From Volvariella volvacea V23 (taxonomy: Eukaryota > Basidiomycota > Agaricomycetes > Agaricales > Pluteaceae): a stretch of 64,000 bases of DNA. Numbering within the stretch: position 1 is the stretch's first letter; each line of letters opens with the position of its first letter. Positions 3,176 to 25,500 of this stretch are shown in pieces. Made by a program: the position numbers and the translations under genes. The notes beneath the pieces are model-generated. The model saw nothing but the letters and a program-made list of their open reading frames with translations. It made no database searches and had not been told where the DNA came from. The stretch is taken from assembly GCA_000349905.1 (NCBI GenBank), contig KB722769.1:135046-199045 (forward strand). The letters are read 5' to 3'.

Positions 3176-3568
3176 CCTTTGTACCAGTATTCAATATGCA
3201 CGTACATACTGGTTTCCCTGTTCTTAAAACAATATGTGTTGTATAGTCTTCCTGTGCTCATCTGTCATGCGAGTTTGGGAGTATATTACAGTACCCCAAA
3301 ACCTAACCAATTCCATCATCAACTACGTATTGCCTCATATCCATGACGAGATCACACCCCGGACTTGTAGTAGGTAAAACTGTGTATTCCGTATCGTAAA
3401 TACAAGCCTATATATATGTATGGAAAAATGAGTGGCATGCTAAATATCGTAAACGAGTGAACAAAGGATAATCTACTAAAAAGGAAATGTGATCAAAGGA
3501 ATGTACAACGTGCTAATACACGACTGTGAGCACGAGGCTCGCTCCATTGTCCTGTTGACTGATTATGA

Positions 3569-5065
3569 AATGTCCTTTCAACAATCCAAACAGTATTTGG
3601 TACCCCACAACAACCACTTGACTTGGCCGTGGACTTTGGAAGCTCCTTACTCGCAATATGGTCATCTGAATGCACTTTCTGCCTGGTTTACCACTTCCGT
3701 TTTTTTCCATTGGATTCCTTGACTTTTCAGGTATACGCGTTCATCATTTTCATATGACTATCTTTGACCGTTATGAACCATGAATCTGAATTCTAACCTT
3801 TCCCGGACTGAAGACGGGTCCTTTGTCAACAATACAGATATTACTCGTGGAGGGTGGTATACTGATTCTATTGGAGGGGGCTAGGCGCTGAAGATGTGCA
3901 ATTCGGTAAGTTATAAGGACTCGCATTCATCCTAGTGGGTCTAATATCATATTTGATAAACACTGAGCGTGGAATTTCCTTTACCTCCAGCTCTTGTAAC
4001 AGAGCTTGCCGATGGAATAAATCCTTTCAACGGAGTACTAGGCATCTCGATAAACCCTGAGAACCCTAAACAAAACATATTTAGCCGACTCTGGGACGAT
4101 GGGAAGCTGCTAAACCCAGTTCTAGGCCTACGCCTCGACCCAATCAACCCCAAGATGACGATTGGAGCCCTTAATCCAGATTATTACGGGGGTGCAATCA
4201 ATTGGGCAGAGGTTCGTGGCGGTCGGGGAAACGGGGGACGATTGGAGGTCACATTAGGTGGGATCAAGGGACACAATGGTTCCTTCTTACCTTTTAGTGC
4301 GGACACGGTCAGCGCGACTCTTTCAACTTGTATGTTCCTCTCGTCGTCCCTGTTCTCTGAGGCTCGGCCCATAACTAACCCAAATTATTATACGGCATTA
4401 CAGTTATTAGGGATATAGAACTTCCTTCAAGTACATTTGCTCAATATTTTGGAAACTCTGACTACAGTGGACCTGATGTGACACCGGTATCAAATTCGAG
4501 CATTATTAGTTGCCCGGACGCTCGGAGTGGAATGCTTCTGTCTGTGCCATTTACGATTGCGATCAACGGGGTTGATTATCCACTGGATGGCCCGAATAAT
4601 CTGATTCTCCCTCTGGACCAAGAGGAATGTATAGTTGGGATCGCCAGACTGCCATATAACGCAGAAGTTATCCTAGATTTACCATTCATGAGCATGAGGA
4701 GCGTCTACATGTGAGTATCAGTGATTTACGTCGCTTCAATGACATGCAGTCTAATATAATGAACCCCTTGCCTCACAACTGCATATCGCTTCCCTACTTT
4801 TGATTCTCCTGAACGCCCACCACGTATAGGCTTTGCGATCTCATCTGGTTTAAATCGTGCACTAGAGTTCATTAATCAACTGCCAAGATCTGAACCCCCT
4901 CTCAAGGAGTAGTGCCTCGCATTCACGCCGCCTGCAAGAGGTCCGGCTAGCTTACCTGATTTATTAGTTCAGCGTGGTTCTGGCTCATATTCTATATACG
5001 GTGGTGAGATGGAAGGACGTAGAGTTCCATTGGTTGGAGCAAACGAGCTAGCGTGGATAGTTTAA
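3569..5065 (+). pseudogene. Degenerate family B pepsin-like gene (B1)
   Basis: Remains of a family B gene directly downstream of A2. The signal-peptide exon and the start of exon 2 are missing; the frame opens only at 3569. Recognisable pieces are exon 2 (to 3730, with an A-V-D-F-G-S-S-L motif), exon 3 (to 3905), exon 4 (to 4329), exon 5 (about 4410-4711) and exon 6 (to the TAA at 5063-5065). Three lesions are visible. A +1 frameshift in the G-run near 3876-3883 brings a TAG into frame. The acceptor before exon 6 reads CT instead of AG at about 4789. A TAG at about 4910 replaces the CAG (Gln) codon found in the other copies. The motif D-F-G-S-S is the closest in the window to the canonical D-T-G-S of active A1 proteases. 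Confidence 0.75.
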
Positions 5066-5397
5066 ATCAAAGACCTACGCTAGTACGAATAGTCAAGAGT
5101 TCAGATTTATCTAGATTTTCCTTTTGTGCTAAAGTACATCGCTCTCTTATTCTGCGCGTATGATTGTTCAAAATGGTGTTCAAAAACTCCAAATATGAGG
5201 ACTTATCATAACGCATTCTACCATTCATCCCGGAAGGAGCGCGAAGGATCGACCTGTCGTGCTATATAATACCGTAGATGCATGCACACAAACTAAAATT
5301 GAAAGGATATAAGAATTACAATCTTCAATTTAAACTCGAGTATATACACTCGTAGGTTATTAAAGAAAAACAAAGCAAATCAGACCAGCCCCATATT

Positions 5398-7650
5398 TTA
5401 GGGTGCCTCACGGTCACGAACGGCTAAGATCCCTACTCCTCCCGAGTCTTCCGACTTGTGATCTAAGACCAATACCTGGTTCCTCGACGCATTAGCAAAC
5501 GCACGTTCTAATCCCTGGCCCTCTTCTTTCCAATCCTCTTTAATGATCCTCGCCAAGTCATTAGGCAGATTCGATACATGCAAGACTCGAGCAACCCTCA
5601 AAAGGCTAAAAATCTCCCCTTTCCCTGACCTAAAGAATGCCAGAATGTTGAGGATATTGAGTGCCATCAAGAGTATTGTTGACACGACGACATGAGGTCT
5701 AGATGCCGTGAAACTGATCACAGGCTTGGATATAATACCAGGCACAAACGCTGTACCGAGGGTGCCAGTCATATACGGCTGCGATGCTGAATGGACGTAT
5801 TTGAAGTACATCTCAGTTATATTTGCAATTGGCATCGGTGTCCACGTTATTGGCAAGGCAGAGGAATTGAGGCGATTGTACGCCCTAACTTGATCCCAAC
5901 CGAAAACGAGACTCGCCTGTGTGAGCGATTGTCCTCGCCATACGTCTATATTTGGACCTGCGTTATCCCCCAGCTCCCCAAACAGCGACATAAAGAAAAA
6001 GTCTCCTTGGTGCCTATCCAAGTTTTCTTGTGGAGAAAATCGTTGCCCGTTGTTTGGCGAAAAAACTGTCAGGCTTCGGCCACTATTCCGGATTTCAACG
6101 GTCTCGATAGAGAGGTTTGGAGAACACCCTAGAAGAGCATATCGTAAGATGCCGCCATATTCGTCCATGACACCGAACGTTGGGATATCGGTTTGATTGA
6201 ATATTAGGTCCCACGCAAGAAATTCTGCAGCCGTAACATTGGGATAATACTGCACAATCGCCCAGAATGCGTTTCCGCCCAATGCAACATCCCCAGTGGT
6301 GCTGTTAGTGGCCCGAAGGTTGTGTGGAGAGTCCGTTGAGCAATATCGCATCTCGAAACCTTGATTACCATTGACTAAGCCAGAACAATGTGATTAATTA
6401 AGAAGCGGCGTGACAGTCTAATGCCCTACCTAACTCAGGGCGCATAAAATAAATATTAAGGTCGATCCCCAGGTCTGGAATATTTACCGGAATTACGGGA
6501 AGATCCGTGAAGTCCTCGATAGAATATGTTTCAGTGCTAAGATTTGTTACATGCCAGGTGCATGTTGGTCGTAACACAAATACATCTGTGAGCCACCTGG
6601 CAGATATTTCTGGGGTGAGATTGACAGGAAGTGGGACGATGTATCTTGGAACTGAATTAGAGTTGCTGGTCCTAGAATTTGATTCCGGAACGCTGAAAGA
6701 GTAGTTGACGTTTAAACTAGTTTCTGCCCAGATTATTGACGCAGCTTCTTCAAGTTTGAGAAACATGCGCTGCGAGATGCTGTTTCTTCCAGCTCTAAAT
6801 TGCGATGTACTAAGGTGAATTCATTCCGAACCCACCTCTTTGATTAAAACGAATTGATGGGGGATGCGCCGAATACTTACTTGGCGACGGAAGCGATAGG
6901 CATAGCTCCCACCTCAAACGCCATCACACCCGAGTCCATGAACGCCTCCTGCACTGATACTTTAGGCCAAAAAATCAAATCACATTAGCGCCAATCGCAT
7001 CACCGAATCAGGGTACTCAACGTGCGGCAGGTGCCAGCGAAGATGCCATCATTACGATAAATCCAGCGATGAACGCCATAGTGAAATGCGGGCTGCATTG
7101 CTTCCTGATAACGGCTACAATGGTTTCCCTTATCCCAAGTGAGGCAGCGGACGATACTGCATTTGCTGTTGCGAGATTCAAACCTTCCACCTCAGCAGGT
7201 CTTTGGGGGTCATGGTATTCGTAGCCGTTTCTGACTTTATCACGTCGTTTCATCATACGAAAGAATTCTTCAGCCTTCAGGTTTTGGACACATTCGATTT
7301 CCATTTGCTTGAATAAAGGATATGACGTGTGCATACCTGGATATCAACAAGCAATGTCCTAATTGGCCATAGCCCTAGCGCGATGACCAAGATGCTAACA
7401 GTTGTCACTCCTGATTTAATGGCGGCTATTGTTCTCATAAGTGATTGATCATTCTGTGGACGTAACCGGTCCACTTACCAATATTGTTTGGGGTAGCATC
7501 AATTAGTCCATTATTGCGCAGTATGACGGTTCGATGCAGTACGGTCCAACAGAATCCAAGGTATGCGGTCGTGATAAGGAGAGGTATCAGCAGGCCTATC
7601 AATTCCATGAAATCCATTCTCTTGCAAGCGTTTTCGGTCTTGGGCGCCAT
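5398..7650 (-). CDS. Family A four-TM membrane protein with large ectodomain (A3)
   Basis: Six exons, written here from the start codon down: 7650-7479, 7425-7337, 7274-7022, 6959-6881, 6794-6430 and 6374-5398. The reading frame is intact and gives 644 residues. Transmembrane segments lie near residues 15-35, 65-80, 150-170 and 547-567. The long middle part has many N-x-S/T sites, and the 77-residue tail starts R-S-G-K-G-E. The ATG at 7650 was chosen because it is the first in frame before transmembrane segment 1. Exons 3 and 4 (253 and 79 nt) have exactly the lengths seen in A5 and A6. The gene lies head to head with B2, with 333 bp between the start codons, so the two may share a promoter. 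The function is unknown. Confidence 0.8.
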
Positions 7651-7983: not shown

Positions 7984-9817
7984 ATGACTACGCTCACGCG
8001 AGTTGATTGTTATTTCCTTCACACGCTCTTGATGGTATCAGTAGTCTCGCTTTTGCTCTTTGGAATACGGTACAATCCTGTCTCTGCTATATCGCAAAGT
8101 GAGTACGTCTCTCAGAACACCGTCTACCTGCAGCATGTTGCTGATTTCCGTGCCAAAAGCAGGACGAAGTTGGGCGTCATTGCAGGTCGGAGTTCCAGAA
8201 AACCTCACCGACCTCGATAGGGACCCCTATGTCTACGCCAACGCTAAAGTCATACTTGGTACCCCGCCTCAAGCTATAGATCTGGCTATCCATTTTGAAG
8301 AATCCTTATTCACCATTTGGTCGTCAAACTGTGCATTTTGCCCTTACGGTTTTCCCTTCTTTCCATCACGATCTTCTACCCTTCAGGTGGGTACAGTTTC
8401 ATAGGGAATTGCATCCCCCACTGCCATGAAAAGTATGCCACGGACGACGAAACACTAACCTGAAATGGTTACAGTCAGAGAATCAACCTTGGGAGTTAAA
8501 CTCTCCTACCGCCCACGGGACCTGGTATAATGATACTATTGGGTTTGGGGAACTGCGAGCTGTGGACGTTCAATTTGGTGAGGAATCAATCCAGAGCCTA
8601 TTCGTTCACTATGCCTAACCACTGCCGTCTGCATCATTATTTGTCTTCCCTGATTAGTTTTGATGCAAGAATTGAGCGTAAATTACCCAGGGCAAAGGCC
8701 CTTCAATGGCCAGCTAGGAATCTGGACAAATTCCTCCACACGGAAAAGCGTCTTCAATCAACTCTGGGATCAAGGACTCTTACTCAACCCTGTTGTTGGG
8801 CTTCGTCTTGACCCCACTCGATCTCGGATGACCGTTGGAGCACTTGACCCAGACGATTACATTGGGAGCATCAATTGGATAGAAGTTCGAGGTGCCCCTG
8901 CTGACCACATTCCCCCTGGCGCCGGAGCAGAAGGTAGAGCAGGGTGGCGGGACGACGGGTTCGTGATTGATGGAATTAAAGGGTATAGCGGTTCATTCAT
9001 CCCTTTCGAGACCGAAGAAATTACTGCAACGTTGTCTACCTGTGAGTTGCACTCTACACCTTTTCGTGTAACCGCTTTCTGAGCCAGGGCCAATATTACC
9101 CATACTCTTCTTTGCAATCTCCAGTTTTTCGTAACATCCTCGTACCCCCCGATGTCTATAGTCAATACTTCTCCAACCCAGACCACCACGGTCCAAACCT
9201 GTCACCCACAATTTTCGACGGAAATCCAGCCTTCAACTGCTCGGGGGGTGAAGATATAGTAGTACCGTTTACCATTACCATCAACGGAATTGACTACCCC
9301 TTAGTTGAACAGAACAACTGGATTCGCCCGTACACCTCATTAGATATCTGTAGGGTGGGGTTGGCGAACTATACGACCGTGATAAATGGGGAGGGTTCGG
9401 GGAGAGTTAGGCCGGTGGGAGATGTGGAGCTGGGACTCCCGTTTATGCGAAGTGTATATGTGTGAGTATATAAGTGCCTTGAGACGCTGGATATTGAATC
9501 AGTTTAACCACCCTCCGAAAACGTACAGCGCATACCGTTTTCCAACATCCGATTCACCAGACTGCCCAGCTCACATCGGCTTCGCCTTTCCATCCGGCAT
9601 CGATCGCACCGAGGAGCAAATCAACCAAACCCCAAGATCGCTTCCTCCTCTTCACGACCAATGCCTTTCCCTTATATCACCTACAGAGGGACCAGTTTCA
9701 AATCCACCCGAATCCCAATTTGAGCGCGGGTCGGGTGCGTATACAGTGTTCGGTGATACATCTGGAGAGAGACAGGTTCGACTGGTTGGAGCAAATGAAT
9801 TGGGAAAGAGAAAGTAG
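7984..9817 (+). CDS. Secreted pepsin-like (A1-fold) protein, probably non-proteolytic (B2)
   Basis: Six exons: 7984-8098, 8160-8386, 8475-8577, 8658-9041, 9125-9461 and 9529-9817, giving 484 residues with an intact frame. Residues 1 to about 35 form a signal peptide (hydrophobic core, then N-P-V-S-A). An A1-like N-lobe follows, with L-G-T-P-P-Q and, where active pepsins have D-T-G-S, the sequence I-H-F-E-E-S (about residues 82-87). The second lobe has no D-S/T-G-T motif. Conserved blocks shared with B4-B7 include W-x-S-L, G-x-W-Y, L-L-N-P-V-x-G-x-R, I-G-F-A-F-P-S and L-V-G-A-N-E-L. With the catalytic Asp replaced by His and the TG lost, proteolysis is unlikely; a binding or structural role is inferred. 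The gene is divergent from A3. Confidence 0.8.
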
Positions 9818-10117: not shown

Positions 10118-11841
10118 TTAAGGTACACGCTGCGCACGAATGTTGGGGTGCAGACCACCCAACAAGATTCTCTCCAACTTGTCGGGAGAGATACTTCCTG
10201 GACCCGAGTAGGGAACGGTATCGACGATATTCTATTTTTTGTCGATATTAACCTCTAGTACGGAAATGTATGGATATAAGACGTACCCCGGTATCAGCCT
10301 GCACCAACTTGGCAAGTGCCGCAGCAGCGTTCGCGTCCCCACCAATCTGGACGAACTGAACGCCAAGCGAATTGGGGTGGTGTGGACCCGCTTTAATCTT
10401 GTTTCCAGCTTCGATCAGCATCTTGGTTAGTTCATGTGCTTCGTCGTCATCTAATAGTTAAATAAGTCGTGATTATGAGTAAGCGGTGGTTTTGTGAACA
10501 AAAATAGTAGATAGAACGTACTGGGTTCACCATCGGTGATGCAAATCATATCGAGCGGTTTGATCTCGCCATAGGCCGATGTGCCCTTAGCTGCGTTGAG
10601 CTTGTCGATATGTGCACCGAGGATTTGCTGTGTGCGCGATCCTGTAGGGGTGCTACCATCTGGGTTCACCTTATTGATTGCCTCTGCAACCTTCCCTTTG
10701 TCCTATTCGCGAAGTCAGTAACGCGGCAAAGGAATGACGCTGAAAAGAATGGAAGGCGCACCTGAACACCCGTGATATCCTTGAACTGGAATAGGTTATT
10801 GGAGTTGAGGAAGCGGAGATCGATACCATCCGAATCCCAGCCCTTATCAATGATATAATTGGCAAGACCATCAAGCGCGTTCCTGGCCTCGGTCCAGCGG
10901 TCGCCCTTCATCTGTAGTAGTCGTATAGCATCAGAAACACGCCTATGATAACAACAAAAGCGAGGAAATGACGTACCGAGCCAGAATCATCCAACAAGAA
11001 GACGACGTCGTACGCTTTAAGATAGTTGTCCAAAGTCGATGGCCTAGGTCGGTCAAGGACAGGGTTGTAGCCTGGGATGACGTTGTCAGGCGGTGGTGGG
11101 GGTATAGGATTCGGGTTCGTCTTGACGAGGTGGACAGTCACAACCCTAGGGAACGGGGTCAGCTATAGTCTAGGGCTAATGAAGGACCACATTACGCGTC
11201 GTCGAATTGGCCGCTACCAGCGACTTGTGCAGCGTCCGAGGTATCTTCTACAAAGATCTGATTTCAAAGTAAAGCAGTGAGCATACTGTGCGTATAACAG
11301 TTTCGAGTCAGCTTACAAAGTAGGTGACGTAGTCAGGGATTTCAGGTGCAGCAGTTGGTGGTTTAACCGACTAACAGAGCGACCGTTCAGCAAATTATCG
11401 CATTTGCGAAGTTCGCGACTACGTACAGAGTGCAAATCCAGCTTACTCGAAGCATACTTGGGATCCCTTATTGCTTTCGCGGTCAACTTCCCAGAGGTAT
11501 CAGCGTAGTATGCTGAAATGGTCAACTCGACAGGGGTCTGTCGGGGTGCGATTGGGAATGTGGTCGAGCCAGAGATAGCGTCTGGCATGGGACCCGAAGT
11601 TCCATAGTCGCTTTTGAATGTGGATGAGTTGTTGCGAATATTAGTTTGGACAAAGATGGCCTGGTGGTATGTCTTTCGTGAGATCTGTATGCAAGGATCG
11701 CAACATCCTGAGTTAGCGCTTCACGTTCATGAGCAAGCCGATGAACAAACTGACAGCAGAGATACTGATAAACCACTCAGGTGGAACAGAAATCTGGACA
11801 GTAGCACCAACGGGAGCTGAAAATGAAGGTCGACCGGACAT
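10118..11841 (-). CDS. N-terminal shared domain fused to a von Willebrand A (vWA) domain
   Basis: Nine exons from the start codon down: 11841-11755, 11684-11427, 11370-11317, 11257-11196, 11145-10977, 10911-10762, 10702-10522, 10450-10287 and 10231-10118, giving 412 residues. Residues 1 to about 160 are the domain shared with the next three genes: V-P-P-E-W-F, I-S-R-K-T-Y, a beta-rich centre, then P-D-Y-V-T-Y-F, I-F-V-E-D and F-D-D. A short proline linker follows. The vWA domain starts near residue 195 with hydrophobic residues leading into D-D-S-G-S-M (206-211), a complete MIDAS D-x-S-x-S. A P-T-G-S loop near 278 and T-D-G-E-P near 315 supply the other metal ligands. It ends with I-L-L-G-G-L. 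No signal peptide is visible, so a cytosolic location is inferred. The role may be metal-dependent protein binding. Divergent from the peroxidase gene. Confidence 0.85.
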
Positions 11842-12385
11842 TGCTGGGTAAGCGACTTGGGGGATGTAAAGTGTAACTTCGCAAATCTGATATATGGTTT
11901 GGGTGACAAGGTCCTTGGAAATCCTTTTAGAAAGTACTCTCGTTAGCCAGAACCGTGGTAAAGCGATTAAGGTCTAAATGGCGTTATGAAAGGCTCGGAG
12001 ATCTTTAGCACCGGTAGGGCGGTAAAGAAAGCGCAAAATGAAGGGTCCAGATCAGATGATGATGTCGTGTTTAAGGTGGGCCAGATAAGGAAACGAAAAG
12101 GCTTGGAATTCTTCGCAACTACAGCACTTGAACAAAGTCCCTTCAAGTCAACTACACCAGCTGACAAGCACAATTGACAGCAATCATAGAAGATCCTTGA
12201 TTGTTGTCCCACTTGATTTGGAAGGAATCATCATTGAACCCCGAATCCCAGAAATCGCATGGAATCCGACTTGAATGAGATGAGATCCTCATTGGCACAT
12301 CAACACTCTCATCGTTTCACATAAACTCCTTGTAATTGTACCTTCGCTTTGAGGACCGCCCCGATTTTGAATCAAGCGAAGCAGA
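11842..12385. promoter_or_regulatory. Divergent promoter region, vWA and DyP genes
   Basis: 544 bp between the start codons of two genes that share an N-terminal domain. No TATA box or binding site could be assigned with confidence. Co-regulation is inferred from the head-to-head arrangement. Confidence 0.4.
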
Positions 12386-14776
12386 ATGTCGCGCCCAACT
12401 TTGAGCCCTGCCTCTTCAGGCAACAATGCGCAAATCTCTATTCCACCCGGGTGGTTCACGACTGTTACAACGGTGAGTTTCTGACGTCAAGCAGGACTCG
12501 TACCTTATTCTCGTTGCCTCGTTCGTAGATCACTCGTAAGACATACAACCAATTGGTGACGCTATCATTTGAGGCCCAGGGTGAACCAAGGACCAACTTT
12601 ATCGCCAATAAATGGAATCAACCCAATACGACGATGCGAGACCTCGACAGCGGCAACGACATGATCGCGGTCATACCACAAGACGAAAGCTTGAATCTCG
12701 ATATCAAATTCTACTTTTCCACAGTCGCCAACATACGCGAAGATGCTCTGGAGAACGCTAAATATGCCAGCAATAAGTTCAATGCCTTGATTGTATTTCC
12801 AGACCCTTACAATGTTTGGCCATCCTGCTAACCTGAACAATTGCGTAGAGCGAGAAACCGCCGAATGCGCCAAAGGACTTCCCTGACTATGTCACATTCA
12901 CTGTAAGTTAGATCTGACACCACTTTGAGCCGCTGAAGCATACCTGATTTAGATTATGGTTGAAGATGCGGCGGATAACCAGCAGGCCGTTGGTAGACCT
13001 GAATTTGATGATCTGTGAGCCGAGCATCACCTCCAAAATTGACCATCGCTTACCCTACCATTAGCGTTTGCACTATAAACTGCATCAAAGGGGTTAAAGG
13101 CGACGATTCCGGCTCTGGGGGCGTGGGTGGTACGCCGTATAACCTTGCCAATATCCAGGGCGACATCTTGTATGTTCAGACACTGTCCTCCGCACTGCAT
13201 GCTAACCCGTACTTGGTAAACAGACCAGCACTCCCGAAGGCCCTCGAATATTTCTACTACTTCCGCATCAGGGATCTGCCCTATTTCCGGAAAGTATTCA
13301 AGCAATTCATCCTCCCCAAGATCAACACTGCCGACGATCTAGTCAATCGGCCACCTCCTCGTGTTAACCCAAATGACCCCAAATCCTTTGAATACCCTTT
13401 CCTAGGTGTCAACATCGGCTTTTCCCACATTGGGATGAGTCTATTCGGACTAACGGATGGCTTGGGCGACGAATCGTATGTCAAGGGTCAACAACAAGAC
13501 TCTAAAACCCTCGGCGATGCTGGTACGCAGCGTGGAACATTCTGGACACCTAACTGGGATGGTGTATTCAAGGAGGTCATCCATGGCATCTTCCTCATAA
13601 CCGCATACAACGAAGGGGTAGCGACGACTTTCATAAAGGAGCTGGAGAGCAAGCTGCTCATCACGCCCAATCGTTCGTGCATAGACAAAGTGTACGTACT
13701 ACACGGTTACCCACGTCCCGGAAAGGAAGGCCCGAATGATCATTTCGGGTACCGAGGAGGAATGTCAAATCCTCAAGTCGCTGGGGTGACTTTCAAGGAC
13801 AAAATGCGGTTCCCTGGGTCGCCTATCATCCCGATAGGTGTAATAGTAATGGGATATGACGGCGACGCAGATAAAGATAAACGACCTGCATGGGCGAAGG
13901 ATGGGTCGTTCATGGTCACTCGTAAACTGGATAACCTCGTACCGGAGTTTGACGACTTCCTTCTCCTTCATGGCCCCCGAATTTTCCCTAATCTCCCACC
14001 AAACGACGCCGCAGCCAAGCTTGGTGCCAGACTGTTTGGCCGATGGAAGAATGGTACATTCAACACATTGAATCGAGGAACATGCTGAGTTAATGGCTAT
14101 CTTCTAGGAACGCCTGTGGAACTCTCACCTGATAACGACGATCCGTCCATCGCCGCTGACGACAACAGAATCAACAACTTTGTTTTTGACCAATCAAAGG
14201 GCCAGGCGAGATGCCCGTTCGCCTCCCATATGAGAAAATCAAACCCGCGCAATGACGTCTCTCCTGTTGAATCGGCATTCAAGCACTTGTGAGTCCTTAT
14301 TGAGTTTTCGTAGTTGGAATGAGTATTGATATGGCCTGACACAGCATTCGGAGACACAACATGCCTTATGGCCCTGAAGTAACAGATGAGGAACGTGACG
14401 GAAGGGGGACTATCCTGGAACGGGGCTTACATGTCGTTTGCTATCAAAGCAGCATCGTCAAGGGCTTCAAGTTTATTCAAGAAGGTAATGATCTTCCTTC
14501 ATCCGCCTCCCAGAATATCACTCATCGTAAACACCCCAAGGCTGGTACAACGACCCCAACTTCCCTCCCAACAAACCTGTGCAGCCAGGTCTGGACCCCA
14601 TCTTTGGTCAAACAGGAAAGGAAGACCAAAACGTCTATCGTTCTATGAGTGGTGCAAACCCCAATTACGAGCAGGAGTTGATGACCTTCCCACACAAGTT
14701 TATCGACCCGCGTGGTGGTGAATACTTCTTTGCGCCATCGATTTCTACCTTGAGAGATTACATTGGCAAGGACTAG
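12386..14776 (+). CDS. N-terminal shared domain fused to a DyP-type peroxidase lacking the GxxDG aspartate
   Basis: Eight exons: 12386-12472, 12529-12792, 12849-12902, 12953-13014, 13065-14053, 14108-14288, 14345-14484 and 14541-14776, giving 670 residues. Residues 1 to about 162 are the shared domain (I-P-P-G-W-F, T-R-K-T-Y-N-Q, I-P-Q-D-E-S-L, F-P-D-Y-V-T-F, F-D-D). A DyP peroxidase follows, beginning L-A-N-I-Q-G-D-I. The heme-ligand His is at 526 in C-P-F-A-S-H, and the distal Arg is at 548 or 549 before M-P-Y-G-P-E. The GxxDG motif, however, reads G-Y-R-G-G (384-388), so the distal Asp is Gly 387; the codon is GGA, two changes away from Asp. No signal peptide is seen, unlike many secreted fungal DyPs. 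H2O2-dependent oxidation is therefore possible but probably altered. Convergent with the oxidase gene. Confidence 0.88.
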
Positions 14777-15144
14777 AGAGTAGTTCAAAGTAGTTGAATC
14801 ATGTAACGGTGATGTCGTTTCCTGTAAGAATATCAATCTCCAGCTGCTTGATAAACGATGTTACCCACCTTCGTGGCTGAGAAAGAGTCAGGGAGGCAAT
14901 TAAACTGTGAAGCGTTTTCATTCTCCGACAAACTCAGCCGCTTACTAAACTCAGGGACGACACCCACCCTCAAACTCGTGTAAACTCACTAACCTCGGGA
15001 GGGAAAGAATATTCATTCTCCTTTGCCTTCTCTTTCTCAGGTGTAGTGTCCCAATCACACAGAGACACCTCTGCACGCTAACCGAATTTGAGAAAAAGCT
15101 GAATTCGAGAATACAACTCCGTTCAAATTTTACAACAACTATCC

Positions 15145-15244
15145 NNNNNNNNNNNNNNNNNNNNNNNNNNNNNNNNNNNNNNNNNNNNNNNNNNNNNNNN
15201 NNNNNNNNNNNNNNNNNNNNNNNNNNNNNNNNNNNNNNNNNNNN
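15145..15244. other. Assembly gap (100 N)
   Basis: Exactly 100 N, a placeholder of unknown true length. It lies in the space between the convergent peroxidase and oxidase genes and interrupts no exon I can define. Confidence 0.95.
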
Positions 15245-15328
15245 TCACGCCAGTTTCACTACTGAATGCATTGTACACATTTCCAATTCGACAGAAAAAA
15301 GACAGAAACGGACACCAAAACGTGTCGC

Positions 15329-18102
15329 TCATGCAGGCTGGAGATCCAACTTGGTAAGCTCGCGACCGAGATAAGTGAGCGTCGCCAGCGTTCTCTGGTC
15401 CCACTCCTCCGAGTCTCCCCACTCCTTCTTGAACTTGGCGACAATGTCCTCGTTGGGGTTCGGGTTGAGCTCTGGATGCGCGAGGAGCATACCGAGCACG
15501 GCGCGCCATGCGCTGTTGAGGGCACCGGCAACCCAACTAGAATCGCATTCATGAGCTATCCGATGCAGCCGTCTATGGGACTTGGACTTACCCATGGAAG
15601 GTACTTGTGGCGTCACCAGCAAAGTGGAAGCGCTGGTCCTTCGAGGCTGGTTGAGTGACGTAGGGGTAGGTGTACTTGAATTGGTTAGGCCCGAATTGAC
15701 AGAATGCGCCTGATAAAGAGAAAGAAAGAGCGATGGTGATAAGTTCCATAGGACACGACGCCAGTCATGAAATAGCTCACCGAGTTGGAATTGATCGCGG
15801 TAGAAGTCCCATGGGAAGTAGTCCTCGAACTGATCCCACAGCATGTTGACGTCGACTTTATGCACAGCCGCGAGGTCGCGCATGACGAGATCGAGCATGA
15901 CCTTCTCTTCAGGCGTATCTCTACCCCTCATAAGCCCTCCCAGTCGTTGAGAGTCTTGCATTCCGTTGTACGACGCGATCATGCAGTTGGACTTCTGGTT
16001 ACCAGGATGCGAGGGGTCAGGACCATATGACGGATAGACGACATCCCGAATCGGACGGTCAGTAGATGACTGTCCACCGACAATGTTGAGCTTCTCCCAC
16101 CAAGCAGTCTTGAATTGGATGCCAATCTTGATGGATGGCGTGTAAGTCAATTGACGGATGGCGTTGCGCTGTCCATAAGAGAGGTAGAGCTCGTCGAGGT
16201 CGACCATTCGGAGGCACGCAAGAGACATGGTGGAGATGACTTGTGAGTACTTCTTGCTGACTCTCCCGGTGAGGGAAGGACGAGGGCTGTGGCTGGAATC
16301 GAACGTGACTGTTAATGATTCTCCGTTGTCCGTCTCCTTGATAGAGGTGACACGCATATAGTGTTGAGGTTGCGTCTTAATCCGGTCAGTCATGGCCTTA
16401 TGAAGAACTTCGGAACCACCACTGAATTCTGATTTAGCACGAAAGACGAGAACCCTCCAGAATATGAATAATACTCACTCGAAGCATCGCCAGTCGACCT
16501 CTCCCGTCATATTAGGATCCATGAAAACCAAGGATGCCAACACCGTCTCAACCAACGATAGATCGAAAAGTCCTGTACGGGATTCTACCGTCTCCCACCA
16601 TTTCACGACCGGGAACGGTACCTTCTTCTCCAACAGCAGGTAGCTGGTGACAGAGTAGTCCTCAAACGCCTTGAGCTTCTCAAAAGCAACGGGGAACGGA
16701 TAATCCACGAAGAGCTGCCTCAGTTCGCCGAGAATCACTTCCCAGAAGTAGCCAGACCCTCTCTCGAGCCATTCTTGTGGAACGTAGCCGTCGTTTTGAA
16801 CGCTGACTTTGAACACATCGTCTCCCGGTTTGAATCCGTTGTTTTGTGCCTTGGTAATGCTGATCTTGTTGTAGGACAGGAAGGCATTATCTTGTTTACG
16901 GAGGTAAGGCAACATGGTGATGCCGAGTCGTTTCTCCGCAAGCTCGAATGTGCGCGTCATGAACGTGGTTTTGGGATAGCGCATAGCACCGACGTCCTAT
17001 AGGATTTCCTGTTCAGATGTATCCACTGGTCAACATAGCAAAGGGACACTCACGTAGTACTGATACTTTCCGGGGTTCTTTGGGAAGTAATGCGTGTGAA
17101 GTCTTCCTCCGGTGCGTCCAGAGCCTTCCATGAGCTCGTACTTGATGTTGAGCGAATCGAGCATCATGGCGATGTACAATCCCGAGACACCAGCGCCGAC
17201 GATACACACTGGGTACGGTGAAGCTGGTTTAGGCGGCGGTGGGATGAGCACCCCGGGGTCGATGGTAGGCCCGGGTTTGGTCGGGTCCGTGTAGACGTTG
17301 ATGAACCCGTCGATGGCGTCTTTACCGGTTTGGCTGAGCGCTTGAGAACCTGTGTCGGGTGGGGGTGGAGGCAGTTCGCCCTGGAGGATATTGATGGTGA
17401 CGAGTCTAAGAAAGGGCACGGCTGGATGAGGATTGCAGTTCAGAAGAATTTATAAAGGAACTCACGAGTCGTCGTATTCGGGTGCACCAGCCACCTGAGT
17501 TGCGGGTGGAGCGTCTTCCACAAAGATCTGGGAAAGAATGAGGAAATGAGACACAGTCGGAAGTGTTCTGAACCCACGATGAAGGTGCTGTAGTCCGGGA
17601 AGTCCTTGGGCGCGTTGGGCGGCTTTTGGGTCTGTAATGCAATATATGAGATCAAACAACGTGTATGCACAGGGGACTACTTACTCCAACGATGTTGAGT
17701 CTGGAACTCCTGTACTTGTCGGCCCTGAGCGCCTCTCCTTTGATAGAAGCAGTAGTCGAAAAGTAGACATTAAACTCGAGAACGAGCGATTCATCTTGCG
17801 GGATAATCGTGATCACATCCTGCGTCGTATCCAAATATTGCATCTTCGCGTTGAACTGTCCCCATTTGTTGACAATATAGTGGCTCTTCTCCTCGCCTTG
17901 GACCTCGAAATCGCAGGTGATGAGCTGGTTGTAAGTCTTCCGACTGACCTAGATAGCACAGACGATCACGATGAGATGGAGCAGATCTCGAGAAGCGATG
18001 CACAATGACGCGACGTACCGCGCTGATGGTGATGAACCACCCGGGAGGCACTTCAAATTTGGCCTGAGAGCCAGTAGATGGGAGGAGCTTCGGACGAGAC
18101 AT
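15329..18102 (-). CDS. N-terminal shared domain fused to an FAD amine oxidase / L-amino-acid oxidase
   Basis: Nine exons from the start codon down: 18102-18019, 17948-17685, 17631-17578, 17527-17466, 17405-17054, 16996-16479, 16421-15781, 15709-15592 and 15536-15329, giving 766 residues. The shared domain is residues 1 to about 160. A proline-rich linker follows, then the FAD dinucleotide fold V-G-A-G-V-S-G-L (near 224-231), E-G-S-G-R-T-G-G-R and D-V-G-A-M-R. A D-G-G-S-E segment comes next, and the C-terminal FAD motif is F-A-G-D-A-T-S-T-F-H-G-W (near 688-699). This is the flavin amine oxidase family; similarity to fungal L-amino-acid oxidases (F-K-T-A-W-W, G-P-N-Q-F) is recalled, not searched. 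Such enzymes oxidise an amine to an imine and reduce O2 to H2O2. No signal peptide is seen. Divergent from the domain-only gene. Confidence 0.87.
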
Positions 18103-18675
18103 AGTGGCCTAACGAGCAGCCCGGCACCAGACCCCACCCAAGGACTTATATGAGAGACACAACTAGGAATGCTCAGAGCACCATTGCAACCCAGGTTTCC
18201 CAAACGAAATCCAATGGATCCTGGGATCGCAAAGTGCACCGGAGACTGATAGCACCGGTAGGCATCTCGACATGGAAATCAGGACATGGAATTCCACGAC
18301 TCCGGAGATGAGGACGAGTGGGGAAGCGAGCTACTAACAGGAAAGGATTTTGAATGGAAGGCGGTGGCAGATAGATGGAATGGTCGAAGGAGCTTATCGC
18401 AATCACGAGGCCGTGTCAGCTGAGCTTTCTGTTCTTCTAATTCGGGTTACTATGGCAGGGTCAATGCTTAGGGCCCTCCATTTCATCATTAATGCCGGTT
18501 GCCTGCAGGGAATGGACGTTCGAGGACGGGGGCAAGGTTTGGATGAGATGATGGATACTAACTTGAGGGTGTCAGGATTCCAGCTTCGGTCATATAACGA
18601 TATCTATATTACCGCGTCTGAGAGCAGATCCCTCTTTGTACCACCAACTTTGAGGCTCTTCGCAACACTTGTACG
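18103..18675. promoter_or_regulatory. Divergent promoter region, oxidase and domain-only genes
   Basis: 573 bp between the start codons, mirroring the 544-bp divergent region of the vWA/DyP pair. I saw no obvious sequence match between the two regions by eye. Confidence 0.4.
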
Positions 18676-19325
18676 ATGTCACGTCCCACCCACACCCCAG
18701 CAGTCGGCCCAAGTTTCTCAATCAAAGTGCCGCCTGGCTGGATGGCGATCGCCACCGCGGTAAGCCGACAATCTGCTGCTCGAACCACCCGCCGCACGAG
18801 GCACTTACAATGCCGCAGATATCCCGCAAGAACTACCAGCAGGGCGTCGAGATTGGCTTTGACATCGTCCAGCCCGAATCGCGCATCTTTGGGAGCAAAG
18901 CCGGCACCCGCAACGACCTGATGAGAGTCACCCTCGACCAGACGACCTCGCTCCCGTTCAAGGACCAGGAGGACGAGTACCAGCTGGACATCACATTCTA
19001 CTTTTCCGCCACTGCAGTCAAAGACGCAGAGGTGCTCGTCGACAACAACGCGCGAAGCAACAAGATACACGTCGTCAAGGTGGGTTGGTCTAATCACCCT
19101 GGGCCTTGGGCTATGCCTCATAGATGTCCTTCAGACTGAGAAACAGGCTGGAGCTTTTGTGGGGCCGGATAGCGTCACGTTCATCGTGTTTGTAGAGGAC
19201 ACTGCATCTCAAGAAGCTGGAACTGGTCAATTTGATGATGGGTATGTTTCTCCGGCGATATTTAACCCCGGAACTGACGAGCAGATCTTAGGGTGGCGAT
19301 GATCCATCTCGTAAAGAATTCTTAG
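18676..19325 (+). CDS. Stand-alone copy of the shared N-terminal domain
   Basis: Four exons: 18676-18759, 18819-19079, 19135-19241 and 19292-19325, giving 161 residues. The protein is only the domain that starts the vWA, DyP and oxidase proteins: M-S-R-P, V-P-P-G-W-M, I-S-R-K-N-Y-Q-Q, Y-Q-L-D-I-T-F-Y-F-S, V-T-F-I-V-F-V-E-D, F-D-D, then I-H-L-V-K and a stop. Intron positions match the other three genes (after exon 1 in phase 0, after exon 2 in phase 0, and phase 2 in the codon after F-D-D). The intron that splits V-T-F from I-F-V-E-D elsewhere is absent here. There are no transmembrane segments, signal peptide or catalytic motifs. The function is unknown; a partner, capping or scaffold role for the three fusions is inferred. 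Confidence 0.82.
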
Positions 19326-20671
19326 CCGCTGGTATTGTACATGTGTTTGTAGCTTTGTTCCAATGCATAGTAATGTAAAATCATACGGAGGTAACGTTTC
19401 TGCTGCTCGGAATACGCACGTTCCTTGTGTCTAAGGGGATCAATTATCCCCCTTTCGCTATTTTCCCCACTACGGAGCTCTCAAAGCAGACTGTATCCAG
19501 TACAAGTAGATAAACCCAAGAAAGGGTACCTGTGGTCCTACCGGGCGAGAAGGGCGTCGAGGTGGGTGTGGTATCGCAGAGGATTGCCAGCCATTGCTAA
19601 TGCTGTTTGGGAGAATTGTGTGTAGCGGGTATGAAAGACACGCAATGAGATGGTGACTAGCATTCTGCACCTGTGGTGTGCAACAGGAAAGAGATCATAG
19701 GAACTCATTTAGTCGTAGCTGGTAGTGCTGGCGTGCGCATCGGTCGTTGGCGCTCTTTCATAAAATGTTGCAAATGCTACGAGCATCGAATCGTCTCAGG
19801 GTCTCAGTACCAACCCCGATAGAGAACCTTGTAGCTGCCACGACCAAGAGGATATGCGCGCGATGAAACGCGATCGAAAAACGCAGGACCTAAAAGGGCG
19901 CCAAAGGCCCGAAACTCGACGACAGAGGGACAGGGGATGAGCGCGATGAGGCACGGTGTAACACTCCTCCCACGTTCCGCACCCGACTCTTTCGGGGTCA
20001 GTGAAGCAGCGTAACTCTCAGAATTCTGCTCGTCGCACGTTGCAGTGGCTGGATGAACGCGGTGGAGATCGCGGAGCCATCAGCGTAGGATTGAGAAAGC
20101 CGATGGACATTGGGAGGCAGCAGTTTGTAATGCCTTGATTAGGAGCCGAAGAGAAGAGGCGTATGCTATTGTGTTGTTTCCAGTCGTCGTAGGATGAGCG
20201 TTGTCACCTGCCATATTTGCAACTCATTTTGGGAGACTTCCTTTTTCGTCTCAAATGACAATCCTCGATGGATACGCCCGCAATTTTTCTTTTGTGTCGA
20301 CAATCAGCCTCCACGCAGCCCTACAATGACTGAGGGCGATGGACCATCCTCGCATCCATGCCTGATGCTATCTCGCCTCCCATGTCGACACTCAGAGGAC
20401 GCTCAAAGTAGCCGAACAAGGGCGCGGTATCTGCTGCTTATGTCCACAAAGCCCCGACAATGAAATGAAAAATGATGCCATTGGCCGATGTCAAGGGCGA
20501 AATTTAAACCTAACCCTGAGGGCAGCTCCGATGACAGCTGTCGGGTTGTTTACCCGGGTGGCCCGGAACTCGAACCTGCTGGACGTCCTTCATCCCCGGC
20601 GCTGTGGCAAACGGACTCTGCAGTCCTCCTTCGCCCACCCCAACGGCTCGCCACTGCCCACGTCGCTGACC
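19326..20671. other. Intergenic, domain-only gene to MFS gene
   Basis: About 1.3 kb with only short shadow frames. I see no coding exon, RNA gene or repeat. Confidence 0.5.
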
Positions 20672-22582
20672 ATGGCCGACCGGACCACGAAACATCATGG
20701 CCTCAACGAGGACGACGACGACCGCAGCTCTATAATATCCGCCGCCGCACAAGACGACTCCCATTGCCGCACCATGACACCGACTCCCCTCCCCAAGCTC
20801 CAGCTATTTATCATCATCTTCATCCAAATTTCCGAGCCCGTCACCTCGACTGTCATCTACCCCTTTGTAAATGACCTCATTCGATCACTCGGGGTGACCA
20901 ACGGGGACGAGAAGCAGACTGGTTATTACGTCGGCATCGTTGTAAGTCGCTCACCGTTTTTTATCCTTGCGCTCAACCTTCCAACTCTCGCCTTCACCCA
21001 GGAATCGATATTCTATGCGGCAGAAGCACTCACCGTCGTCCACTGGGGCCGCGCATCCGACATAATTGGCAGGCGGCCCATTCTGCTTGGTGGGGTGGCT
21101 GGTCTCGCATTCTCGATGCTGGGTTTCGGGCTGAGCAAGTACTACTGGATGCTTATCCTCAGTCGGTGCATGCAGGGCGCGTTTAATGGCAACATTGGTG
21201 TCATGAAAAGCGTGATGGGGGAGATAACCGACTCTACAAACGCCGCACAGGCGTTTTCCTTCCTTCCTGTTGCCTGGTCCATTGGGTCTACTGTTGGGTG
21301 AGCACAAAATCACCTCTTTTGCTCGACGTTTTGGTTTCCTTTGTCTTACTCATCGGTTTTTTTCAGTCCGTTAATTGGCGGAGCGTTTGCCAACCCAGCT
21401 GAACAATGGCCGGAGTTATTCGGCAAGATATCATTCCTCAAGGTCTATCCTTATTTCCTCCCTTGTTTCGTCGCAGCTCTGGTACCTGTATGCGCGTTCC
21501 TCCTCGCCTTCATTGCGTTGAAAGAGGTCAGATACCCCCATGTCTCTTTTCCCCGAAGATTCTCCTCATACTCACCAACCCCACCTCGTGTTCTCTGTAT
21601 TTGTAGACATTACCGTCAGCCAAGAAAACCACCGACTCTCCAGGGTCAGACGAAGAAGGCGACTTTGCACACGAAAGCTTCGTCCCAACCTGCGAAACGC
21701 GCCTGCTCCGAAATGCCTCTTCCTCAACAGTCAACACAGACTACGGCACACTCACCAACAACACTCTATCACGAAGCCAACCCAACCTCGGCTCAGCGTC
21801 CACCTCCCCATCCTCCACCGCCGCATCCTCCACCCTCTCTCTCTCGTCCCCGAAACCCTCCTTCCAGGAGGTCTTCATCCCGCAGGTCCTCATCCCCATC
21901 AGCAACTTTGCCTTCCTCGCCTTCCTCGACCAATCCTTCCTCGTCCTCCTCCCCCTGATCTACTCCACCCCCCTCGAACTCGGCGGGCTCGCTCTCTCCC
22001 CCTCCCGCATCGGCTCCATCCTTGGCGGGTGGGGCGTGCTCAACGGCTTTGTGCAGGTGTTCCTCTTCCCCCGGCTGAGGCGACGCGTGGGCCATCGCAA
22101 TCTGTACGTGGCGGGAATCGCAGCGCTGGGTGTGGGAGTGGCCATGTTCCCCCTTTTGAACTGGATGATGCGGCTACGTGGAGCCCGGGACGGACACGTA
22201 CTCGTCTGGTGTGGGGTGGGAGTGCAGCTCGGGTTGTACATGTTGACGTATATGTCCTACGGTTTGTCTTTCGTCCCTCCCCCTCGTCGTCGTGTCGTTC
22301 TGACGTTTGTGGTGGTTGCTAGCGTGCATGTTTATGTACATCTCGGCCTCGACGCCGTCTCGCTTCCTTTTAGGCACGACCAACGGCCTGGCGCAGCTCA
22401 CGGCGTCGAGCATGCGCGCGCTCGCGCCGACGACGGCCTCGTCGCTCTTTTCGCTCTCCCTCGAGCTGTGCACGCTCGGAGGGGTGCTGGGGAAGCTCGG
22501 GGGGTACCTTGTTTATGTGGTGTTTGTGCTCATTCCGGCTGTGGCGGTGGGCTGGAGCATGAAGTTGCCCGAGGACGTGTAG
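20672..22582 (+). CDS. Major facilitator superfamily transporter (ZIFL1-like)
   Basis: Five exons: 20672-20941, 21002-21297, 21367-21526, 21607-22261 and 22323-22582, giving 546 residues. The ATG at 20672 (context ACCATGG) was preferred to an in-frame one 207 bases upstream because it begins the usual short acidic head before transmembrane segment 1. The cytosolic loop motif A, G-R-A-S-D-I-I-G-R-R, lies near 106-115. A long Ser/Thr-rich central loop (about 250-315) separates the two six-helix halves. The second half contains L-G-T-T-N-G-L-A-Q, typical of the ZIFL/tetracycline-efflux-like branch of fungal MFS proteins. The family moves small solutes across membranes by ion coupling; the substrate cannot be told. 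Exon 4 is richer in G+C than its surroundings. Confidence 0.85.
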
Positions 22583-25500
22583 AGACGGTCGGTCTGCCCG
22601 GGGAAATCTAGCAAGTGGCATGGTAAGTATAAGGACTCGAGAAGGTCGCGCGTGTGCATTGTATATAGACAAGCGCGCGGCGCGGTCGTTGCACCGCACC
22701 GCGCCAATCATTTGCATCACTAGTGAGGTCACTAGTGCAGCAGCTGCAGGGCTTTGAGACTTCATGCTTGGTTGTTTATGCTTTTTTGGCATTTTTGTGC
22801 TTTGGACTTGTGCGTTCGAGTTGTTAGTATTCTTTTTTAATAAGGTACTTTAGTAGATGGTTTTATGCCTGTGTCTATGTGCGTGGGCGTGGATGTATGC
22901 GTGTTGCTGTGCATATCCAGTAGACTACAGTAATATGAGTGTTGTGGTTACGACGCACATCCTGGATCTAAGCGCTCTGGTACTGTTTCAGCGCGCCACT
23001 GAAGCGCTGGTTGACGTTCCTTTTGGGATATCTAATCCCACGGCTTGATGTGATGTGGCGGTCATTTGCGCAATTGGATCCGACTAGCAAGCGCCCGAGA
23101 AGCCGCTCAGTGGCGCCCGCTCGACGCGTCGCGTCCACGGGCACAATCAGGAGCGCCCACTCCATCGTCCACGTGTACCAGCTACCAGCTACTTGCAATA
23201 CAAACGCACGTACTTGACAGACGGGAATATTATCGACTTTATTCATTTCTGCCTCTGGTCACGATTTCTTTTACAGGGCGTCTTTTTGCCGACTTTTGTG
23301 TTCTCGTCTGTACAGAAATAAGCCGAGACTGCTGCTGCTGCTTGGCTTCAAAACCTCCTCGCGCCGTAATTCTTCTGACCATGAGCTCACATAGTTGCAT
23401 CTTATCACATCATCATCCTCGTCCTGCGAAGGGCTCCTCTCGTCCAAACATTCTCATACTTGTTTTCTCCATTCCTACCCTATCTTTTTATCTGCTGACG
23501 CGGCGTTGGTGGCACTAGCTCCAACACCACACACTCACACTTATGGTCTGCCCTTTCCGAGTGCCCCCATCGATCATCTGCGTGCATTGATATCAATGCA
23601 CATATTCTCAGGTCATAGTTGTAGCTTCTGATTCTCGTTCTAGTCGCCTCGCACCTATTCTCTGTTGTTCTTTTTTCTTGACGTCCATCAACGCCACATG
23701 CCAGTGGAGCAGGAGAAGGGCACCCCGCATGTTTCGTTACCTCTAGGCCTTTGAAAGGGCATTTCATTTCCCTAGTGATGTGAAGGACTGGGATGGACAA
23801 TCTTGTACAGGCACTGATCTCGAGCTTGGCACCCCTCTTGCCTTTTTTTCCTTCGCTCTGCACTTGTACAGCGATGCTGCTGCTGCTGCTCGTTCTAATA
23901 CGGTAGACTTTTGCCTCGTTCTGTGCGTCTGGATGGAGATGTGCCGTAGACTAAATTTTGGGGTATTACCGCTATTGCGGGCAATGGAATCTTGACCGTA
24001 CTGACATGTCGAGGTATGCCTGGCTATTGGCTGGGATTTCTGCAGCTGACATTAGTGGCTGCAAAGCTCGCCGCACAGCCTGGGCTCGTCTCGTCATTCA
24101 GATCCCACGGGTTCAGCGAGGCCCCATCCCAAGCACAAAAGCATCGCCTGTTCCCGTTGCCAGCAGGTCCTTGTCTCTCCGTCTGGACGAATGAGGCTGC
24201 ATCAATTGAGTAGCTTTTTACGACTTGATACACGATTGTCAGCAATGACTGCTGTACGTTATCCTAGCCGGGGCCGGGGCTCCGTTCCCTCTCTCCCTTC
24301 TGTAGACGGGCCGTAGGGCTACATATTGTGTACGTACATACTCAAGGGGACGTTGTCACAAAGGACTTGATACACAAACCAAAAAAACCGTTCTCAAACG
24401 CTTTGAAGGCTGTATTATCGACTTTTTGCGCCGCCTCCGATCCTTCTGTACTTGAATTTTCTTGGCTTTGAGTAGTTAATAGAACTGCATCATCATGACA
24501 TGGCGCAATCGTTCTCCCCGAGCCATCCGAATATTCCCATCGATCCTCCTTAATTTCCGTCGCTGCTGGCATAGTAAACCCAGCACATAGTAGCCCTGCC
24601 TCCTTGGAGTTCATTTATCTCTGAGCATTCTCAGGTTATTCACTTCTGATTAAGGTTCTGTTCGTGTCGCGTCTTCATTCTGTCGCCTTCGTACCTGAAA
24701 TGCGTTGCATCTTTTCAAAGCACGACGTAAATCAATCCGATAATCAATCACAACGGCGTGGGTGGACGAGCTCACCGAGCAGAGGGAGCCGACTTGGGAG
24801 CCGACCAGCTACCGAACCTCATGACTAGCTGGATGACAGACATGAGAAGCTACGAGGGCAGACACTGCAGAAAGTAAAAAACCCGCTGTCACTACGCCTG
24901 TCCATCAGAATCAGGTGTCGAGGGAACTGAGTTTCCGCGGGCAAGGACCAAGGTTTCGAAATCCCAACAACTCGGGCAGGAGAAACACGACCTCGAACTT
25001 TGATCCAAAAGCGGGTGCCATCAGTTTCTGTACGCGCTGGTGCCCCTTTCCCAGGATCGCATTCGACCTTGAAAGAATGCACGACCCCAGAAAATGAGGG
25101 ATCCTGCCAGATGAATGTGTGCCAGGGTAATCGAGAGATGTTTTATGATCCTGAGAGCACCAGAGTTGCTCGTCATCAATATCATGTGGCCCGGTGTGGT
25201 GATGCGTCCAGTCGGATTGGCATGACATGTCAGTGGGAAGCAGGTCGGCGTCGGTGTCGGTGGGATCGCAATGGAACCGTGAGTGCGGCGTCTGGCATGG
25301 CAAAAGTAAGGGGTGGACTCGAAGATGAAGCCTATGCTAGTAGGATTGGCAGCCATGAGCCTGTCCACTGACGGTTTCGGTGCGATGAACCGATAAACTC
25401 CTTTGGGGATTGCTCCAAACGGCCGAATACTTCTTTTTTGTGTGCTTCTACCCGGAGGGAGTAAGTTCATCGACATTTATATCCGATCAAAGCTTTGCAG

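Follow-up and report, generated by a model that had tools for sequence, protein, structure and literature searches.

A shared N-terminal domain of predicted LecB-type lectin fold on a VWA protein, a DyP peroxidase and an L-amino-acid oxidase in a gene cluster of Volvariella volvacea

In this study we analyzed a cluster of four genes, A to D, at positions 10118-19325 of a 64,000-nucleotide stretch of Volvariella volvacea DNA (the window), which belongs to a genome of 35.4 Mb in 54 contigs. The genes form two divergent pairs, A(-)/B(+) and C(-)/D(+), and three of them start with the same N-terminal domain (N-domain) of about 163 residues, joined to a VWA domain, a DyP peroxidase or an FAD L-amino-acid oxidase (LAAO), while the fourth encodes the N-domain alone. 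The gene models, which are predictions, were spliced by hand with GT-AG introns, and all four gave intact reading frames with the outer limits of the first-pass annotation of this DNA. The models of genes D and B are identical at every residue to proteins P0001 (AX16_011019) and P0013 (AX16_011033) of V. volvacea WC 439.

10118-11841, minus strand: gene A, 412 aa, N-domain of predicted LecB-type fold, Pro-rich linker and VWA domain
11755-11841, 11427-11684, 11317-11370, 11196-11257, 10977-11145, 10762-10911, 10522-10702, 10287-10450, 10118-10231, minus strand: exons of gene A
11118-11841 including introns, minus strand: N-domain of gene A, residues 1 to about 163
12386-14776, plus strand: gene B, 652 aa, N-domain and D-type DyP peroxidase
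12386-12472, 12529-12792, 12849-12902, 12953-13014, 13065-13169, 13224-14053, 14108-14288, 14345-14484, 14541-14776, plus strand: exons of gene B
12386-13092 including introns, plus strand: N-domain of gene B
15329-18102, minus strand: gene C, 766 aa, N-domain, Pro-rich linker and FAD L-amino-acid oxidase
18019-18102, 17685-17948, 17578-17631, 17466-17527, 17054-17405, 16479-16996, 15781-16421, 15592-15709, 15329-15536, minus strand: exons of gene C
17378-18102 including introns, minus strand: N-domain of gene C
18676-19325, plus strand: gene D, 161 aa, N-domain alone
18676-18759, 18819-19079, 19135-19241, 19292-19325, plus strand: exons of gene D

The N-domains of the four genes are homologous, as the first-pass annotation had proposed. 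All six pairwise scores lie between 218 and 476, against maxima of 48-65 in 500 shuffles per pair, and 27 of the 168 columns in the four-domain alignment are invariant. The sequence marks listed in that annotation are borne out in part: R-P, P-P, W, R-K-x-Y-x-Q, P-D, V-E-D and D-D recur unchanged from A to D, but VPPGWF, FYFST and PQDESL do not occur in every copy. Intron phases 0,0,0,2 at matching N-domain residues are the same in fusions A, B and C, and gene D is without the third N-domain intron. An NG86 comparison of one 264-base exon between gene C and its paralogue L024 gave a dN of 0.16 and a dS of 0.91, which is consistent with purifying selection on this N-domain exon; gene A and L026 gave no usable dS.

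The partner of the N-domain in gene A is recognised just as a generic VWA domain (PF00092, 36.1 bits, E 1e-8, residues 200-336) with a MIDAS DxSxS motif, DDSGS at residue 206, and with ITDGEP at 315, so that the adhesion role named in the first-pass annotation is no more than putative. In gene B, DyP_N (PF21105, 107.2 bits) and Dyp_perox_C (PF20628, 24.2 bits) are both over the cut-off and the nearest structure is a D-type DyP (PDB 7anv, E 1.7e-110), all of these scores coming from a 670-aa model that still included the intron 13170-13223, before the final model of 652 aa. Asp, His and Arg residues of gene B are aligned to the same letters in 7anv, and we take them to be the distal Asp, proximal His and distal Arg of DyP catalysis. 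Gene B has both Pfam halves and these three residues in common with the fungal D-type DyPs (7anv, Pleurotus 6fsl and DyP 2d3q), and differs from them by the N-domain in front. Gene C matches Amino_oxidase over the full domain length (PF01593, E 1.1e-33), a domain it shares with the fungal LAAOs hcLAAO4 (9enh) and L-lysine oxidase (7c3i); its nearest structures are L-amino acid oxidase 4 (PDB 9enh, E 1.8e-86) and L-lysine oxidases, and by its flavin amine oxidase domain it appears nearest to the LAAOs. Unlike hcLAAO4, which has a native endoplasmic reticulum signal sequence according to PMC7568252, gene C begins with the N-domain and a Pro-rich linker and has no hydrophobic start. Fusions A, B and C all lack a hydrophobic N-terminus by a hydropathy window of 15 residues, whose mean reaches 1.07 at most within the first 60 residues. 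The same genome also has DyP loci at C32:218 kb and C12:721 kb, each with an in-frame ATG just ahead of 'NIQGDIL', along with no fewer than two LAAO loci (C23:375 kb and C25:197 kb), that are not among its 13 genomic N-domain matches (E<=10), and the N-domain therefore looks like an add-on to these enzymes.

The N-domain is not confined to this cluster. Elsewhere in the genome it is found in another LAAO fusion (C34:87.8-90.6 kb), in another vWA fusion (C12:623.9-625.6 kb) and in a further LAAO fusion at C6:1134.2-1136.8 kb (L025, G000:C6:1131500-1141000, about 2692-5271, minus strand), which has in-frame stops in both its N-domain and oxidase parts and is probably a pseudogene. Three protein searches for relatives retained 12 of 22, 11 of 130 and 26 of 6244 candidates, amounting to 41 different proteins with the window's two included. 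All 41 match the N-domain profile with a worst E of 3.6e-12, 14 of them having been in that profile (P0001 and P0013 counted as D and B). By Pfam labels and length, 24 are DyP fusions, 3 are LAAO fusions and 4 are solo proteins; the rest are 9 fragments and a single truncated protein whose linker is of the LAAO type. They include one Serendipita protein and several metagenome proteins, and the other named species are presumably all Agaricales. Fusions of this N-domain occur in many Agaricomycetes, judging from predicted proteins, and the domain-DyP and domain-LAAO proteins of other fungi support the fusions as real. The vWA fusions were found in V. volvacea only, in searches that extend no further than rather close relatives. 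In a tree built from 26 domains, the partner type changes three times, the minimum for four types, against at least 8 changes (mean 11.06) in 1000 label shuffles; support is good for 6 of its 23 inner branches and below 80 for another 6, and the tree has three long rows. The tree groups the domains by partner and not by species, and the paralogues are therefore old. Contigs of equal size suggest that N-domain genes are linked in Crucibulum, Hypsizygus and two Coprinopsis.

Some individual relatives may be mentioned here. In Tephrocybe rancida three domain-DyP proteins (P0035, P0038 and P0039) have consecutive locus tags, DXG01_013506 to 013508, and probably represent a tandem expansion. Mycena amicta P0041, a DyP extended by a Pro-rich stretch, carries a strongly diverged N-domain (profile E 3.6e-12). 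A V. volvacea gene at L027 (G000:C23:112500-121500, about 4115-6331, minus strand) has a linker and VWA module like that of gene A, and carries a patatin-like phospholipase (PF01734, E 3.8e-14) at the position of gene A's predicted lectin-fold domain.

No named family was found for the N-domain by sequence, in agreement with the first-pass annotation. Searches with it returned chance rows only in Pfam (best E 0.019), NCBIfam (best E 0.1) and the PDB (best E 0.65), and a viral fold library gave no match at E <= 0.001. A prokaryote genome scan produced 28 pattern matches and no confirmed relative, and a second prokaryote scan, with patterns from the DyP part, confirmed 0 of 25. We found no description of this N-domain in searches of the open PMC literature, judged largely from listings and not covering subscription papers and preprints, so that other papers may describe it; the passages of PMC10512322 considered here do not mention an N-domain of this kind. 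The structure prediction that the first-pass annotation had recommended alongside a Pfam search tells a different story. The AlphaFold2 model of gene D (pLDDT 91.4, pTM 0.86) matches the beta-sandwich of LecB/PA-IIL-type lectins, a well-described superfamily, and genes A to C are assigned to it by homology. The N-domain is thus predicted to be a beta-sandwich with a LecB/PA-IIL-type lectin fold, diverged at the calcium site.

The closest known system by fold is therefore that of the LecB/PA-IIL-type calcium-dependent lectins (PF07472), such as BclA, BC2L-C, RS-IIL, CV-IIL and sponge thrombocorticin. As described in PMC9700728, thrombocorticin is a homodimer in which Ca-1 is held by D117, N119, D120 and the C-terminal G131 of the partner, and Ca-2 by N107, D115, D117 and D120, and one residue added at its C-terminus diminishes fucose binding. 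The N-domain differs from these lectins in several respects: it has 161 residues in gene D as compared with 113-131, it has no sequence match to them, the Asp ligands D115 and D117 are not kept, the fungal solo proteins lack the C-terminal Gly, and the domain is placed ahead of enzymes, without a hydrophobic start. In the model, one strand has V-E-D at its end, and D-D comes immediately ahead of the last strand; V-E-D is present in 22 of 26 N-domain rows and D-D in 21 of 24. The motif x-F/Y-D-D was counted in 24 rows, after 2 of 26 without a readable motif were dropped; the position ahead of its aromatic is occupied by Q (9 rows), E (7 rows) or R (4 rows), and once each by G, K, L and A. In a register against thrombocorticin that was judged visually on the last strand rather than derived from coordinates, the two-calcium ligand set (N107, D115, D117, N119 and D120) is not reproduced. 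A two-calcium site as such is unlikely in the N-domain because the ligand positions, notably the D117 place, are not kept. R31, Y34 and Q36 show little or no variation among 21 N-domains, and their place near the loop facing the old site, from a reading of strand order rather than coordinates, suggests a reworked site. The four solo proteins end 11, 11, 12 and 10 residues past the second Asp, with S, S, Q and K as last residues, close to the reach of thrombocorticin's C-terminus. A survey of fucose-related proteins (PMC10481521) reports LecB/PA-IIL homologues in fungi from two genera, Metarhizium and Hirsutella; the predicted fold would extend the LecB type to the Basidiomycota and to a new context, that of a tag at the N-terminus of redox enzymes.

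The divergent starts of each gene pair are separated by a short intergenic region, and one 13-mer, TAGCACCGGTAGG, is common to both regions.

11842-12385: A/B intergenic region, 544 bp between divergent starts
18103-18675: C/D intergenic region, 573 bp between divergent starts
12006-12018, plus strand: TAGCACCGGTAGG copy 1, in the A/B intergenic region
18250-18262, plus strand: TAGCACCGGTAGG copy 2, exact, in the C/D intergenic region

The 13-mer came to light post hoc, in a scan of both regions for common words. These are its only two exact copies in the 35.4 Mb genome, where about 1 is expected by chance, so the notable point is their location. The two regions have 2 common 12-mers against 0.05 expected, with a maximum of 3 in 100 shuffles. 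Allowing two mismatches, the window has 3 matches, and 4 of 100 shuffles gave as many; at one mismatch or fewer the genome has 22, as compared with 45 for the reversed control pattern. Upstream of the N-domain copies at L024, L025 and L026, 1200 bp contain no match at two or fewer mismatches. With such mixed controls, TAGCACCGGTAGG as a common promoter word is suggestive only.

What could such a domain do for these enzymes? LAAO activity yields H2O2 and peroxidases consume it, and many defence lectins of mushrooms are kept in the cytosol. We tentatively favor, as a possibility still short of likely, that the cluster encodes an oxidative module in the cytosol, probably for defence, which the lectin-fold domain assembles or aims. 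The common domain, the fusion architectures, the recognisable enzyme domains, the divergent clustering and the taxonomic spread are observed and the lectin fold is predicted, while ligand binding, co-assembly, the cytosolic site and defence are all what we infer. The N-domain would then be a portable tag for assembly or targeting, which might gather the LAAO, the DyP, the vWA protein and the free domain at one cytosolic place, through domain-domain binding, one common ligand or both. LecB-type relatives are dimer-forming glycan binders, and the common N-domain could hold LAAO and DyP together, so that peroxide made by the former would be spent locally by the latter. The target would probably be a glycan or a glycan-like surface met as hyphae are eaten or wounded. 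Of the docking, scaffold or targeting device suggested in the first-pass annotation, docking and targeting fit the predicted fold. LAAOs from some mushrooms have antibacterial activity, according to PMC7248570.

Several observations weigh against this proposal. In PMC7248570, a table of antibacterial and L-amino-acid oxidase activity in fruiting-body extracts lists Coprinopsis cinerea as negative throughout, and this species has a LAAO fusion (P0024). Our confidence is slightly lower, and that in the alternatives raised, because of this score; a defence role remains our first choice. A search with 21 N-domains listed 9 Pfam families at E<=10, HMMER filters dropping most weak rows, and PF07472 is not one of them; it also has no match in the whole genome at E<=10, searched exon by exon and hence insensitively. 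An Asp at the D117 place occurs in 0 of 24 readable N-domain rows. In the fusions the chain continues into linkers, with no free C-terminus at the old site, and the full-length model of the DyP fusion is weak (pLDDT 62.8, pTM 0.54) with no fixed domain arrangement; a VIA run with it had DyP peroxidases and no lectins among the 50 matches listed, an outcome that the model's length makes uninformative. The 24 DyP fusions against 3 LAAO fusions indicate that the full set may be unneeded. Finally, three of the four contigs suggesting linkage in other genera are 0.9-2.5 Mb long, so adjacency does not follow.

It is doubtful, but conceivable, that the N-domain is instead an oligomerisation or stability module only, forming enzyme dimers or tetramers as in LecB-type lectins, with no ligand and no joint work of the four proteins. 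The LecB-type fold, the loss of the canonical calcium ligands and the homodimer of thrombocorticin, as given in PMC9700728, all agree with this. However, the solo protein contains no enzyme part in need of stabilisation, and conserved residues of two separate segments would, by the same reading of strand order, meet at the old binding site. Another reading, which we consider unlikely, takes the cluster for a remnant of local duplication: copies of an ancestral domain gene and its promoter would have become fused to different neighbors, and the partners would now act separately. The common intron phases, the 13-mer common to the divergent pairs, possibly left from duplication, and the further LAAO and vWA copies (C34:87.8-90.6 kb and C12:623.9-625.6 kb) speak for such a history, but the paralogues are old by their sorting on the tree, and yet some of them lie on equal-size contigs in other genera.

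That neighboring solo-domain genes have been misspliced to enzyme genes is very improbable. All gene models, here and in databases, are predictions, but the 41 proteins contain 24 of the domain-DyP type, counting that of the window, and 3 of the domain-LAAO type; these numbers, together with the conserved exon structure and open frames, argue against this artefact. Beyond the lectin-aimed module that we prefer, a more specific version seems rather improbable to us: in a basidiomycete LecB branch, calcium would be replaced by a built-in Arg/Lys-acid site, and the free domain would pair with the tagged LAAO, DyP and vWA proteins, its C-terminus pushed into their site as LecB protomers do, giving a self-assembling, lectin-aimed cytosolic peroxide machine against animals or microbes breaching hyphae.

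What appears new here is a known, though predicted, fold with a diverged site, its new fusion partners and the gene cluster. The model gives a fold, and hence a testable function, to a domain left blank by Pfam in mushroom DyP, LAAO and solo proteins. A common module and a gene cluster tie an H2O2 producer to an H2O2 user, and the role of such fungal DyPs and LAAOs is therefore directly testable. These fusions suggest an undescribed way to assemble or aim an oxidative machine inside mushroom cells.

The surroundings of the cluster hold a few other features. A run of 100 N at 15145-15244, where the 3' ends of genes B and C face each other, is a gap or a masked stretch. To the left lie aspartyl-protease-like pieces at 3960-4415 and 8654-9079 on the plus strand (PF00026, at and just over the cut-off), and to the right an MFS-transporter-like gene at 20366-22608 on the plus strand, with one piece over the cut-off and one under.
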